Source of the DNA: Clostridium sp.
GTDB lineage: Bacteria; Bacillota; Clostridia; Lachnospirales; Lachnospiraceae
Length of the DNA: 64,000 nt
Assembly: GCA_023664775.1 (NCBI GenBank)
Contig: JAMPEW010000001.1
Coordinates: forward strand, 62,001-126,000
Direction of reading: 5' to 3'
The notes under the pieces were generated by a model. The model was not told the DNA's origin and ran no database searches. It saw only the letters and a list, made by a program, of their open reading frames with translations. Shown in pieces: positions 40,791 to 45,171 of the stretch. The translations under genes and the position numbers were made by a program. The first letter of the stretch is position 1. Every line of letters begins with the position of its first letter.

Positions 40791-42116
40791 ATGTTAGCAG
40801 GACTTAGTAATATATTGGAAGTAATAACAATCGTGATAGGCATTTTTCTGATAGAACGATATGTATTTTTGGAGCCGGAAATGGAAGTCAAAAAACAAAA
40901 GCTGTTTTATCTGGTCAGCATTATCAGCGTTATGGCAGTGTTTTTCTTCATGGGAAAGGATGCTGCTACGGTTGCGGCACTGATAGCAGGCGGATTGAAT
41001 ATTGTTTTGGGAAGAAATGTGCATCGCTTGAGTGGCTTTTTTCTGATTCTTCCGATTCCGGGTATTTTAAATGGACTTGTCGTTCCTATTTTTGTAATGG
41101 CACCGAATTTGCTTGGATTTTCTGAACGGACAACGCTTTATTATGGTTTTTTGATGTATGGCGTGCTGGCATTTGTTCTGCTGCTCTTTTTCGTGAAAGG
41201 GAAGGAGTGGCGGAATTGGTTCCGGGAAAATATGAACAAACGCCATTTGCAGAAATGGGAGAGCATTTTACTGTATGTGTCAGGTATTTTGCTTTTATCC
41301 TTTTCAAATATTATTGCGAGGCAGATTATATTGAACAGGCAATTGCAGGAAGCAGGGGATGACTATGCGGTAAGTGGTCAGTTTGCGTGGGATGTCTGCA
41401 TATACGGAGTGACTGCATTTGTACTGACTGTTGCGTTGATTGTCCTTGTCATGCAGGGAAATAAGCGTTCCTACTACCATGAGCAGCTTTCTTCCATGCA
41501 GTTTAATATGATTGCGTTGATGGCTGACCTTGTGGAGAACAGGGACGAGAATACGGGCGGTCATATTAAGCGTACCGCAAGGTTTGTTGAAATTATTGCA
41601 AATGCCCTGAAAAGACAAAATCTGTTTTTGGATACGCTGACGCCGCAGTATATATCAGATATGGTTGTTGCCGCACCATTACACGACATTGGGAAAATAC
41701 ATATTCCGGATGCCATTTTGAATAAACCGGGAAAATTGACGGAAGAAGAATTTGAAATTATGAAAAGCCATGCTGCAGCAGGGCGTGATTTGCTGAAACG
41801 GGCGGAAGGTCAATTGGGACAATCTGCATATTTGGATATTGCTGTGGAAATGGCGGCATATCATCATGAATGGTGGAATGGAAAGGGCTATCCGGATGGA
41901 GTAAAAGGAGAGGAAATACCTTTATGTGCAAGAATTATGGCAGTGGCGGATGTGTTTGATGCACTTACCTCAAAACGCTGCTATAAGGAGGCAATGCCGC
42001 TTCAAAAGGCATATGAGATTATACGCAGCGAATCGGATACACACTTTGACCCGATCGTGGCAGAGATTTTTTTGGCTTCCTCTGACGAAATTGAAGCAGC
42101 ATTAAAAGAATTTTAG
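40791..42116 (+). CDS. HD-GYP domain protein with membrane sensor region (c-di-GMP phosphodiesterase)
   Basis: A 441-residue protein. The N-terminal 220 residues hold about seven membrane helices, and the C-terminal 200 residues are an HD-GYP domain: NRDENTGGHIKRTAR (near residue 246), LHDIGKIHIPD (near 297), HHEWWNGKGYPDG with the GYP motif (near 362) and ADVFDALTSKR (near 385). It should degrade cyclic-di-GMP. Leucine codons TTG and CTG dominate, unlike the CTT-rich genes elsewhere in the window. The start has GAAGGGTGGG upstream. Confidence 0.88.
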   Translation: MLAGLSNILEVITIVIGIFLIERYVFLEPEMEVKKQKLFYLVSIISVMAVFFFMGKDAATVAALIAGGLNIVLGRNVHRLSGFFLILPIPGILNGLVVPIFVMAPNLLGFSERTTLYYGFLMYGVLAFVLLLFFVKGKEWRNWFRENMNKRHLQKWESILLYVSGILLLSFSNIIARQIILNRQLQEAGDDYAVSGQFAWDVCIYGVTAFVLTVALIVLVMQGNKRSYYHEQLSSMQFNMIALMADLVENRDENTGGHIKRTARFVEIIANALKRQNLFLDTLTPQYISDMVVAAPLHDIGKIHIPDAILNKPGKLTEEEFEIMKSHAAAGRDLLKRAEGQLGQSAYLDIAVEMAAYHHEWWNGKGYPDGVKGEEIPLCARIMAVADVFDALTSKRCYKEAMPLQKAYEIIRSESDTHFDPIVAEIFLASSDEIEAALKEF

Positions 42117-42141
42117 GAAATGACAAAAGCAACGCCAATCA

Positions 42142-42170
42142 TTGCCCCAAAAGTATAAATACGTTATAAT
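42142..42170 (+). promoter_or_regulatory. Promoter of the aldo/keto reductase gene
   Basis: TTGCCC (42142-42147) and a perfect TATAAT (42165-42170) are 17 bases apart, about 58 bases before the start codon. Confidence 0.6.
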
Positions 42171-42228
42171 ATGTCTGTAAAGCATGGATGAAGCTGAAAG
42201 AAATCGGATGTTAAAGGAGGAAAAATTT

Positions 42229-43344
42229 ATGCAATACCGTAAGCTGCCGAAAGGAGTGGAACAGATTAGTGTTTTTGGGATTGGCACCAGCTCCATTCAG
42301 GCTTCAAGTGAAAAAGAAATTGAGGAGATTATGGATATTGCCATTGAGAACGGTATCAACCTTTTTGATATGGCATCGTCGGAGGCAAAGCCCTTTGCTT
42401 CCTATGGACGTGCAATAAAAGGCAGACGGGATAAGGTATATTTCCAAATTCATTTTGGTGCAAATTATGAAACGGGAACCTACGGATGGACAACAAATCT
42501 GGATACTGTTAAGCGTTCTGTTGATTGGCAGATGAAAGCACTACAGACCGATTATATTGATTTTGGGTTTATCCACTGTATTGATGAGCCTGCGGATTTA
42601 CGGAGCATAGAGAAAGCAGGAATCATCCGTTACATAGAAGAACTGAAGGAAAAAGGCGTGGTGCGGCACATCGGTCTTTCTTCCCATACGCCGGAGCTTG
42701 TAAATAAAGTGCTGGACATGGGAATTTTGGATATGCTGATGTTCAGCATCAATCCTGCCTATGATTATGCCGGTGGTGAATTGGATTATGCAACGGACAG
42801 CTACGCGGTAGGAAGTGTAGCTGAACGTATGAATTTGTATCGGCGATGTGAGATGGAAGGCGTGGGAATCTCCGTTATGAAGGCTTTTAGTGGAGGACAG
42901 CTATTGAATGAAAAGACTTCTCCTTTTGGCAAAGCATTAACAGAATATCAGTGTATTCAGTATGCTTTGGATAAGCCGGGTGTTTTGACTGTGCTTCCCG
43001 GCGTCCGAAATATGGCAGACCTGAAACGGATTCTCGGTTTCTGTAATGCAACACTAGAGGAAAAGGATTATTCTATTCTCGGCTCCTTTGCACCGCAGGA
43101 TGCCACTGGAAAATGTGTTTACTGTAATCATTGCCAGCCCTGTCCGAAAGGCTTGGACGTGGGGCTGATTAACAAATATTATGACCTTGCAGGCTCAGGG
43201 GATGAACTGGCAAGAAGCCATTATGAAACCCTTGCAGTCAAAGCAGATGCCTGTATTCGCTGTGGACATTGTAACAGCAGATGTCCGTTCCATGTGGATC
43301 AGATAGCGAGAATGCAGGAGATAGCTGCTTATTTTAAGCAATGA
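42229..43344 (+). CDS. Aldo/keto reductase with C-terminal two-[4Fe-4S] ferredoxin domain
   Basis: A 371-residue protein. Residues 1-270 form the aldo/keto reductase barrel (GIGTSSIQAS at the start, the catalytic region with DMASSEAKPFASYGRA, and HIGLSSHTPELV near 160). The C-terminal part has CVYCNHCQPCPKG and CIRCGHCNSRCP, two classical 4Fe-4S motifs. Such fused proteins are common in Clostridia and probably couple ferredoxin-type electrons to a carbonyl or related substrate that is unknown. ATG 42229 has AAAGGAGG about seven bases upstream. Confidence 0.88.
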   Translation: MQYRKLPKGVEQISVFGIGTSSIQASSEKEIEEIMDIAIENGINLFDMASSEAKPFASYGRAIKGRRDKVYFQIHFGANYETGTYGWTTNLDTVKRSVDWQMKALQTDYIDFGFIHCIDEPADLRSIEKAGIIRYIEELKEKGVVRHIGLSSHTPELVNKVLDMGILDMLMFSINPAYDYAGGELDYATDSYAVGSVAERMNLYRRCEMEGVGISVMKAFSGGQLLNEKTSPFGKALTEYQCIQYALDKPGVLTVLPGVRNMADLKRILGFCNATLEEKDYSILGSFAPQDATGKCVYCNHCQPCPKGLDVGLINKYYDLAGSGDELARSHYETLAVKADACIRCGHCNSRCPFHVDQIARMQEIAAYFKQ

Positions 43345-43446
43345 AATAAAATAAGGCATACGTATTTTAATCTGAAACAGATTGAGGGCAGCTTTGTCTG
43401 TTTAATTCCTACAGTAAATTTACGCTGTCCGCTTCAGATAAAAGCA

Positions 43447-43475
43447 TTGCAATCATCCTTTATATATGTTATATT
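43447..43475 (+). promoter_or_regulatory. Promoter of the antitoxin RNA
   Basis: TTGCAA (43447-43452) and TATATT (43470-43475) are 17 bases apart. Transcription would begin near 43482 and end at the terminator at 43526-43567. Confidence 0.65.
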
Positions 43476-43481
43476 AAATGC

Positions 43482-43567
43482 AAAGGAACAACCGCCCACA
43501 AAGTGGTTGACCTTGTTGATGGTAGAAAAATCACCCGTCACTCAGTCAAAGTATAGGGTGGTTTTTC
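43482..43567 (+). ncRNA. Putative antisense RNA antitoxin of a type I toxin-antitoxin pair
   Basis: A short transcript of about 86 bases is bounded by a promoter on one side and a terminator on the other, with no plausible ORF. It contains CCACAAAGTGG, a small hairpin, and runs against the 3' end of the toxin mRNA made from the other strand, so the two RNAs can pair over the terminator region. This convergent layout is known from TxpA/RatA and BsrG/SR4 of Bacillus. The role is inferred from layout only. Confidence 0.6.
43526..43567. terminator. Bidirectional terminator shared by toxin mRNA and antisense RNA
   Basis: AAAAATCACCC (43526-43536) pairs with GGGTGGTTTTT (43556-43566) with one G-T pair, and flanking G-C and A-T pairs extend it. 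Each arm supplies a T run for one strand. Confidence 0.8.
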
Positions 43568-43581
43568 TGCGTTTTAAAACA

Positions 43582-43689
43582 TTAATGACAAATCAGATAA
43601 ATGAATGTCAGCAATGCTAATATGAACGAACCAAAGGCCATAAGGTCTTTGAAGTCAAATAATTTCTTATTCTTCTTTTTTCTGTTCAT
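43582..43689 (-). CDS. Putative holin-like toxin peptide (35 residues)
   Basis: The 35-codon frame encodes a basic start (MNRKKKNKK) and one membrane helix (LMAFGSFILALLTFIYLI). The pattern LMxFGxFIxALLTFI is that of the putative holin-like toxin family (Hol_Tox) of Firmicute type I toxins. GGGGGTGG lies five bases before the ATG, and an in-frame ATG at 43704 is an alternative start. A promoter (43756-43784) and terminator frame the gene. Such peptides depolarise membranes when overproduced and are silenced by an antisense RNA. Confidence 0.78.
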   Translation of the reverse strand: MNRKKKNKKLFDFKDLMAFGSFILALLTFIYLICH

Positions 43690-43755
43690 AAGCACCACCC
43701 CCATTCTATGTAGAATAGAGGTCAGCCACCCTGTAACACGATTGCTCCCATAGAC

Positions 43756-43784
43756 ATCATAACATGCTGCCAGTTCCTTTACAA
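43756..43784 (-). promoter_or_regulatory. Promoter of the holin-like toxin gene
   Basis: On the minus strand TTGTAA (43779-43784) and TATGAT (43756-43761) are 17 bases apart. Transcription would start near 43749, leaving a leader of about 60 bases with the ribosome binding site GGGGGTGG. Confidence 0.65.
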
Positions 43785-44073
43785 CTATTTTTAACGATTT
43801 GCGTTAAGAAGTTTGCGTTTGTTTTATATATATTTTTTTATAAATACTTTTTTGAAATAATTATTGCATACTAAACATAATATACCGGTATTGGGTTATT
43901 CGTCAAAAATATAAGTATGGAAATTATGGAAGCACTGTGTTATTATAAGTGTTGGTTTGTGTGTAACGCCGCAAAGTGCCCAAAAAATTGGTGTAGTAAA
44001 TGGTGTAATAAGAAAATAGAGAAAAACGAAAAACCCAGTAAAATCAAGGGTTTCAGAGGAGGAAATGTAAAAA
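43785..44073. other. Intergenic region before ychF
   Basis: A/T-rich sequence with the repeated 7-mer TGGTGTA (at 43990 and 44002) and an inverted repeat AAACCC / GGGTTT (44032-44054) just before the ychF ribosome binding site. A frame from 43917 with six Cys runs through ychF's start but has no ribosome binding site and is not called. Nothing else convincing is seen. Confidence 0.45.
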
Positions 44074-45171
44074 GTGAAACTAGGAATCGTCGGGCTCCCG
44101 AATGTGGGAAAAAGTACATTATTTAATTCGCTTACAAAGGCAGGCGCAGAATCTGCAAATTATCCGTTCTGCACCATAGATCCTAATGTTGGAGTTGTTC
44201 CCGTACCTGATAAAAGACTTGATGCCCTTACCAGCATGTACAATTCAGCAAAGACTACCCCTGCCGTTATCGAATTTGTGGATATCGCAGGTCTTGTAAA
44301 GGGAGCGTCAAAGGGCGAGGGCTTAGGCAACCAGTTTCTTTCCAATATAAGGGAGACGGATGCAATCGTCCATGTGGTAAGATGCTTTGAAGACGCAAAC
44401 GTAATCCATGTTGACGGAAGCGTTGACCCTATCAGGGATATTGAGACAATCAATCTTGAACTTATATTTGCTGATATCGAGGTGTTGGACAGGAGGATTG
44501 CAAAAACCACAAGAGGGGCAAATAACAATAAGATGCTTGCAAAGGAGCTTGAGCTGCAAAAAAATGTGAAGGCTCATCTTGAGGAGGGCAAGCTTGCCAT
44601 TTCATATGAAACAGATGATGAGGACGAGATAAAATGGCTCAAGGAATATAATCTGCTTACGGGAAAGCCTGTTATATTTGCGGCAAATGTTTCCGAGGAG
44701 GATATTGCGGATGACGGTGCCTCCAATACGTATGTCCAAACAGTAAAGGAATATGCAGGAAAATTTGGCAGTGAGGTATTTGCAGTCTGTGCTCAGATTG
44801 AACAGGAAATATCGGAGCTTGACGATGATGAGAAAATGATGTTTTTGGAGGAGCTTGGCGTTTCCGAGTCAGGTCTGGACAAGCTGATAAAGGCAAGCTA
44901 CTCGCTTCTTGGACTGATTAGCTATCTGACGTCAGGCGAGGATGAAACAAGGGCGTGGACGATTACGAAGGGAACAAAAGCACCTCAGGCAGCAGGAAAA
45001 ATCCACACGGATTTTGAAAGAGGCTTTATAAAGGCGGAGGTTGTTGCCTTTAATGACCTTATGGAAGCAGGCACCATGCTTGCAGCAAAGGAAAAGGGAC
45101 TTGTGAGACAGGAAGGCAAGGAATATGTCGTAAAGGATGGCGACGTAATTCTTTTCAAATTTAATGTTTGA
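44074..45171 (+). CDS. ychF: Obg-like ATPase YchF
   Basis: A 365-residue translation-linked P-loop protein. G1 is GLPNVGKST near the N-terminus, G3 is DIAGLVKGASKGEGLG, and the G4 position reads NVSEED, the NxxE that favours ATP over GTP in this family. A C-terminal TGS domain contains TSGEDETRAWTITKGTKAPQ and FERGFIKAEV. The GTG start at 44074 has AGAGGAGG about 11 bases upstream. It is unlinked functionally to the neighbouring lgt. Confidence 0.94.
   Translation: MKLGIVGLPNVGKSTLFNSLTKAGAESANYPFCTIDPNVGVVPVPDKRLDALTSMYNSAKTTPAVIEFVDIAGLVKGASKGEGLGNQFLSNIRETDAIVHVVRCFEDANVIHVDGSVDPIRDIETINLELIFADIEVLDRRIAKTTRGANNNKMLAKELELQKNVKAHLEEGKLAISYETDDEDEIKWLKEYNLLTGKPVIFAANVSEEDIADDGASNTYVQTVKEYAGKFGSEVFAVCAQIEQEISELDDDEKMMFLEELGVSESGLDKLIKASYSLLGLISYLTSGEDETRAWTITKGTKAPQAAGKIHTDFERGFIKAEVVAFNDLMEAGTMLAAKEKGLVRQEGKEYVVKDGDVILFKFNV

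Follow-up and report, generated by a model that had tools for sequence, protein, structure and literature searches.

The window, by which we mean the whole 64,000-nucleotide stretch of DNA analysed here, carries what is very probably a chromosomal type I toxin-antitoxin module whose RNAs are laid out much as in the par system but whose toxin is a different one. The locus lies between two genes that, judging from their translations, we take to encode an aldo/keto-reductase-like protein (42184-43344) and a ychF-like GTPase (44074-45171). It appears to be intact and conserved and to belong to a widespread RNA family for which we found no description, and most likely represents a variant of the type I kind. 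A type I system had been proposed in an earlier note on this DNA, a reading that is supported, at the level of sequence, by the anatomy of the locus, its recurrence and its conservation. On this basis we infer that the two RNAs are transcribed, that they pair in the cell and that the encoded peptide is toxic.

The earlier note had described, on the minus strand, a membrane peptide of 35 codons, together with two facing promoters with 17-base spacers, a terminator hairpin common to both RNAs, and a convergent RNA of about 86 bases ending at that hairpin. These parts were all recovered (Table 1): the reading frame was confirmed, both promoters were returned by a promoter scan and recur in sister loci, and the common hairpin was found as an inverted repeat whose stem covaries. 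The convergent RNA lies where it had been placed, with ends deduced from its promoter and the hairpin.

Table 1. Features of the putative toxin-antitoxin locus, in positions of the window
Feature	Position	Strand	Remarks
Antitoxin promoter	43447-43475	+	TTGCAA-17-TATATT with TG extension; promoter scan
Antisense antitoxin RNA	43482..43570	+	About 86-89 nt; ends deduced from promoter and hairpin
Antitoxin 5' hairpin	43489..43509	+	CAACCGC ... GUGGUUG; conserved, 5' arm nearly invariant
Shared bidirectional terminator	43524..43568	both	Inverted repeat 43524-43536 / 43556-43568, 12/13 pairs
Toxin ORF	43582..43689	-	35 codons and stop; contains LMAFGSFILALLTFI
Toxin mRNA leader	43690..43749	-	Conserved 5' element at about 43720-43745 and predicted hairpin 43697-43722 burying the Shine-Dalgarno 43695-43702
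Toxin promoter	43784-43756	-	TTGTAA-17-TATGAT with TG extension; promoter scan
Two direct copies of TTTGCGTT	43798..43819		Start-to-start distance 14 bases; lie 5' of the toxin promoter

Since the promoter scan of 42800-44400 returned 12 sites where 4.4 were expected, lone sites prove little. Both putative promoters are, however, conserved among sister loci. Upstream of the antitoxin, a sigma-70-type promoter score of 9 or more was reached in all of the distinct regions compared (105/105, against a mean of 16.7 in dinucleotide shuffles), and upstream of the toxin in 92 of 101 sister loci (shuffle mean 15.8), counts that are non-independent because the sister loci are related. The spacer of these promoter-like sites measures exactly 17 in 80 of the 105 antitoxin regions and in 78 of the 92 toxin regions. 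Paired copies of TTTGCGTT, a possible regulator site, were also observed in four further loci that are copies from the same genus (L002, L004, L030 and L061).

The shared hairpin was omitted by a terminator scan, probably since its loop exceeds the length that the scan allows. Its predicted stem carries compensatory changes: in an alignment of 23 antitoxin sequences (21 picked for diversity, together with those of the window and of its paralog L002), 8 of 11 stem pairs showed two-sided changes, with 38 such cells as against 11.3 after shuffling. Across the whole antitoxin structure, 96.2% of the cells in this alignment were paired, compared with at most 59% on sliding. In addition, the terminator loop of the antitoxin keeps CAA (in at least 90%); on the toxin strand this corresponds to UUG, in agreement with YUNR.

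Translation of the reading frame yields a peptide of 35 residues with a basic N-terminus and a single hydrophobic stretch, presumably a membrane helix; 5' of the frame, on the minus strand at 43695-43702, lies the strong Shine-Dalgarno stretch GGGGGTGG. Against Pfam Hol_Tox (PF16935) the peptide scored 18.5 bits, below the gathering cut-off of 23.3. In NCBIfam it weakly resembled ComI (16.4 bits against a cut-off of 55), and the sole match in PHROGs was to one uncharacterised PHROG (19.2 bits). The Pfam scan at E<=1 returned no match to the Fst family, and the PXXXG motif and charged C-terminal tail of Fst, as described in PMC7472228, are both absent from the peptide. Matches to the peptide were found in 26 of 145 genomes at E<=0.01, its own included, and its own genome holds five at E<=10 (three identical over the matched length, i.e. 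100%, one at 58% and one with an E of 0.6). Across 63 distinct ORF cores of the window's toxin kind, a pN/pS of 0.21 (mean pN 0.13, mean pS 0.62) indicates that the predicted peptide is under purifying selection; the core comprises 17 codons outside the antitoxin RNA, and the high pS makes the ratio a rough one.

A fuzzy-pattern script identified 176 antitoxin-like sites in 202 loci, 107 of them with a facing toxin ORF after a conserved leader, 11 with a leader without an ORF and 58 with neither. Re-examination of the 69 ORF-less sites brought out a toxin motif in 15 more, and the 69 include seven stretches ended by the locus boundary and, among the others, a few apparently spurious hits of the pattern. 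Two kinds account for most of the toxins, FDFKDLMxFGxFxLALLTF, which is that of the window, and STYEVLSLLxxGGxFLVALLAYIDRNNKRK, and similar leaders and antitoxin 5' hairpins accompany both. Three loci in the window's own genome (L010, L011 and L013, on contigs 25 and 58) have an STYEVLTLL-type toxin near a like antitoxin 5' hairpin. The Hol_Tox assignment made in the earlier note is borne out only in part for the window's own peptide: all four scanned peptides of the window's kind, that of the window among them, fall under the cut-off (13.5 to 21.2 bits), but one scanned STYEVLSLL-type peptide, encoded in the same RNA context, reaches 47 bits (cut-off 23.3). Where the peptide might have been lost from surroundings that are kept, the opposite was found, with peptide and both RNA genes recurring at different genomic sites.

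Two other accounts of the locus bear on these findings. The weak match to ComI, which is named as a competence inhibitor in NCBIfam, and the presence of several copies per genome would be in keeping with a membrane peptide that acts as a regulator or is secreted, under antisense control, instead of being a self-toxin. We consider this unlikely, as the strong Shine-Dalgarno, its predicted sequestration and the scattering of the copies, some of them on plasmids or in viral contigs, are in line with type I toxins. It is also conceivable, though very improbable, that the window holds a decayed, non-functional copy of which only repeated sequence is left. Some copies do lack a toxin ORF, as does one in the same genome, but the copy in the window has its ORF, Shine-Dalgarno, both promoters and terminator, and this ORF shares 97% identity with those of two paralogs. 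The ORF-less copy in question (L009, contig 56, at about 1501) is a solitary antitoxin in which the promoter, the RNA and part of the leader remain; a search of this locus for the toxin ORF did not find one, and other toxin-less antitoxin-like sites exist elsewhere.

The antitoxin RNA can be followed well beyond this genome. By DNA similarity it has nine matches in its own genome (E<=10) and occurs in 19 of 145 genomes, its own included (E<=0.001). A covariance model built from the antitoxin alignment, for which E-values are rough, matched 78 genomes in a sample of 250 from the host's family (apparently Lachnospiraceae), again including its own, at E<=0.001; the best E was 1e-10 or lower in 65 of these and only 6.5e-8 to 3.4e-5 in the other 13. 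The model found 10 copies in the window's genome and a maximum of 12 elsewhere in this sample. When applied to a sample of the phylum, it matched 7 of 299 genomes, one being that of the window and the other six giving weak matches (best E 1.9e-4 to 8.4e-4, 27.8-30.5 bits). In named genome contigs, the antitoxin pattern was present in at least 117 stretches; among the 80 matches listed, all titles name Clostridia, and most of these are names that we take to be those of Lachnospiraceae genera or of Lachnospiraceae itself, which points to Lachnospiraceae as the host's family. The antitoxin RNA thus appears to recur across what is apparently one large family of gut bacteria.

The same pattern was identified in 15 stretches of viral contigs, where a second antitoxin type (AAAGGCAAYCGCCACAG...) had no matches. 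Phage records gave one match, over 11% of the query. Four plasmid records were matched, three of which are from Enterocloster bolteae (identity 73-74%, with 74-81% of the query covered); in these E. bolteae plasmids no annotated feature lies beneath the match. No Rfam family matched at gathering score anywhere in the window, and permissive Rfam matches within 43400-43850 (SpR08, RNAI and others, E 1.3 to 8.8) were rejected as lying far below the cut-offs. The titles and abstracts that we searched, most subscription papers being outside our reach, held no description of this toxin-antitoxin or RNA family, and it is not named in what we consulted of PMC7472228, PMC8167048, PMC6563280, PMC7699646, PMC8040213 and PMC11228461, although the tables of PMC8040213 may list it.

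Both RNAs are predicted to be structured. For the antitoxin (43482-43572) the predicted fold, with z = -4.96, consists of a 5' hairpin followed by the terminator hairpin. The four pairs of the 5' hairpin show no two-sided change, which leaves conservation as their sole support: the 5' arm AACCGCCCAC is close to invariant, a conservation partly built in by the use of 5'-hairpin patterns to find the antitoxin sites, and the 3' arm varies by insertions and deletions. On the other side, the toxin mRNA (43750-43515) folds with z = -4.07, and its ribosome-binding site is predicted to be masked by this folding. Among 97 distinct leaders (mean z -3.19), thermodynamic prediction placed the whole core of the Shine-Dalgarno in base pairs in 91. 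In an alignment of 23 leaders, 97.6% of the leader pairs were formed, as against at most 72.7% on sliding; covariation in this alignment did not rise above that of shuffles, as is expected because one arm is the fixed Shine-Dalgarno.

These features suggest how the module might work. Transcription from the minus-strand promoter would yield an mRNA of about 230 nt for the single-helix membrane peptide of 35 residues, and folding of the leader would pair the strong Shine-Dalgarno and so delay translation. From the convergent promoter would come an RNA of about 86 nt that stops at the same hairpin, read in the opposite direction. The 3' part of this antitoxin is by position fully complementary to the 3' end of the toxin mRNA, and first contact would probably be made between the terminator loops. 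Repression could follow in one of two ways: the antitoxin 5' arm AACCGCCC might extend to the Shine-Dalgarno region GGGGGUGG and prevent translation, or RNase III might cut the duplex. Were transcription of the antitoxin to stop, the peptide would be made and would damage the membrane. In the earlier note, the overlap of the two RNAs had been placed in the 3' region of the toxin; it is present there, but this description is incomplete, since the antitoxin also has its conserved 5' hairpin.

The antitoxin 5' arm could pair with the toxin Shine-Dalgarno, as CCGCCC in the antitoxin and GGGUGG in the toxin make such pairing possible in the window. We compared this pairing with several controls. 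Duplexes between leader and 5' part of the antitoxin gave z values from +0.19 to -2.64 against shuffles in 30 pairs. At the Shine-Dalgarno of the window, a fraction of 0.199 of 1000 shuffled antitoxins paired equally well, as did 2 of 56 ordinary Shine-Dalgarno windows. Across 103 pairs, cognate partners had no clear advantage over swapped ones at the Shine-Dalgarno (p = 0.086); taken by toxin group, p was 0.008 for the 77 pairs of the first and 0.99 for the 26 of the second. At the 5' end of the leader the overall p of 0.0028 vanished within the groups (0.29 and 0.38), so that the signal there reflects a difference between groups. The antitoxin arm does pair better with toxin Shine-Dalgarnos (69 distinct, mean -11.7 kcal/mol) than with 56 ordinary ones (-7.5), an advantage that is confounded because those of the toxins are the stronger Shine-Dalgarnos, pairing with the ribosomal anti-Shine-Dalgarno at -15.2 as against -9.75. 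Shuffles and partner swaps were thus unconvincing as evidence that the antitoxin 5' arm has coevolved with its cognate toxin leader or Shine-Dalgarno, and this idea was kept at the status of a hypothesis.

With firm support for the 5'-arm pairing lacking, a mechanism like that of RatA becomes a real rival, in which the antisense RNA acts through its 3' overlap only, by RNase III decay as for TxpA/RatA, and the 5' hairpin merely stabilises it. It is at the 3' end that perfect complementarity sits, and the strong covariation is in the terminator; the unconvincing statistics at the Shine-Dalgarno point the same way, and RatA itself, as described in PMC8167048, provides a precedent for action at the 3' end. 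By contrast, a near-invariant AACCGCCCAC arm facing a variable 3' arm suggests a role beyond that of forming a stem, even if this contrast is partly built in by the search patterns. We regard action through the 3' end only as a substantial possibility that falls somewhat short of being probable; as a variant of the type I explanation, it shares in the likelihood of the latter.

Comparison of the window copy with its relatives suggests that its parts have different histories. The sequence at the start of ychF was found in 31 of 37 genomes of the genus, and the module is present at this site in 3 of 30 loci (those of the window's genome, G014 and G028, the last cut by a contig end), the upstream sequence of locus L208 being too short to judge. 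Relative to G014, the window copy is 96% identical in the antitoxin promoter, 92% in the toxin promoter, 87% in the leader, 85% in the antitoxin RNA and 67% in the toxin ORF. Relative to its paralog L002, identity is 97% in ORF and leader, 88% in the antitoxin RNA and 67% and 62% in the promoters, and relative to a second paralog, L003, it is 97% in the ORF and 62% in the antitoxin RNA. The window copy therefore looks like a mosaic, and the simplest reading of this one site is that the toxin cassette was exchanged between paralogs while local promoters were kept. In G014 the module directly follows the match to window positions 42001-42142, and the aldo/keto-reductase-like stretch (42142-43437) is absent, having been either gained in one genome or lost in the other. 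A mobile element with terminal inverted repeats, an idea prompted by the alike starts of the RNAs (GGAACAAYCG...), was set aside, as no insertion boundary or target duplication could be established.

A subset of copies may also be wired to stress. The motif GAACN4GTTC, which matches a LexA box of Gram-positive bacteria, was found in 12 of 101 toxin upstream regions, where 0.03 were expected from shuffles. The carriers (L019, L020, L022, L023, L024, L028, L029, L031, L070, L098, L125 and L174) mostly have it as CGAACTTGTGTTCT, at the toxin promoter, and nine of the 12 are closely related loci beside the second antitoxin type, so that the count may reflect few events. This suggests that the copies with LexA-like boxes are under SOS control; the locus in the window has no such box. 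A broader and rather doubtful picture would join these observations: the unnamed antitoxin RNA family, apparently restricted to one bacterial family, might serve as a fixed chassis whose conserved RNA ends recombine to exchange one membrane-toxin cassette for a different one, with local promoters, some of them SOS-controlled, staying in place, and with solitary antitoxins acting as anti-addiction guards against incoming copies.

If the type I reading is correct, a common family of gut bacteria possesses a multicopy toxin-antitoxin system with a recognisable RNA signature, and the RNA model makes these tiny genes findable where the peptide falls under family cut-offs. Hol_Tox-type peptides, by name only putative toxins, would gain a defined antisense partner and a mechanism that can be tested, and the mosaic copy in the window and the copies with LexA-like boxes would open toxin exchange and stress wiring to direct tests.

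Of the known systems, par (Fst-RNA II) of the Enterococcus plasmid pAD1 is one that the locus resembles in layout. PMC7472228 describes the promoters of par as convergent and its single terminator as bidirectional, with loops at which the RNAs first touch; the toxin RNA there has a U-turn motif and conceals its Shine-Dalgarno in a stem-loop, and part of the antitoxin extends to the start region. The locus in the window seems to share the convergent promoters, the bidirectional terminator and a small membrane toxin, together with a predicted Shine-Dalgarno-sequestering stem-loop in the toxin mRNA and a U-turn-type loop on the toxin strand. It differs in that its antitoxin is about 86 nt long, compared with about 40 nt as given in the same source, in that its toxin is not Fst, and in that it has no proven counterpart of DRa/DRb, no such repeat being among those detected at the locus. 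With Hol_Tox (PF16935) the peptide shares an LMxFGxFxxALLTF core, but it has a longer basic N-terminus and is without the basic C-terminus. The antisense RNA, convergent over the 3' end of the toxin mRNA, resembles those of TxpA/RatA in B. subtilis and of the CD2517.1-RCd8 type in C. difficile, as described in PMC8167048 and PMC6563280. The toxins of those systems are longer, at 59 and 50-53 residues as against 35 here; a strong Shine-Dalgarno is a further feature that the window's toxin appears to have in common with TxpA.
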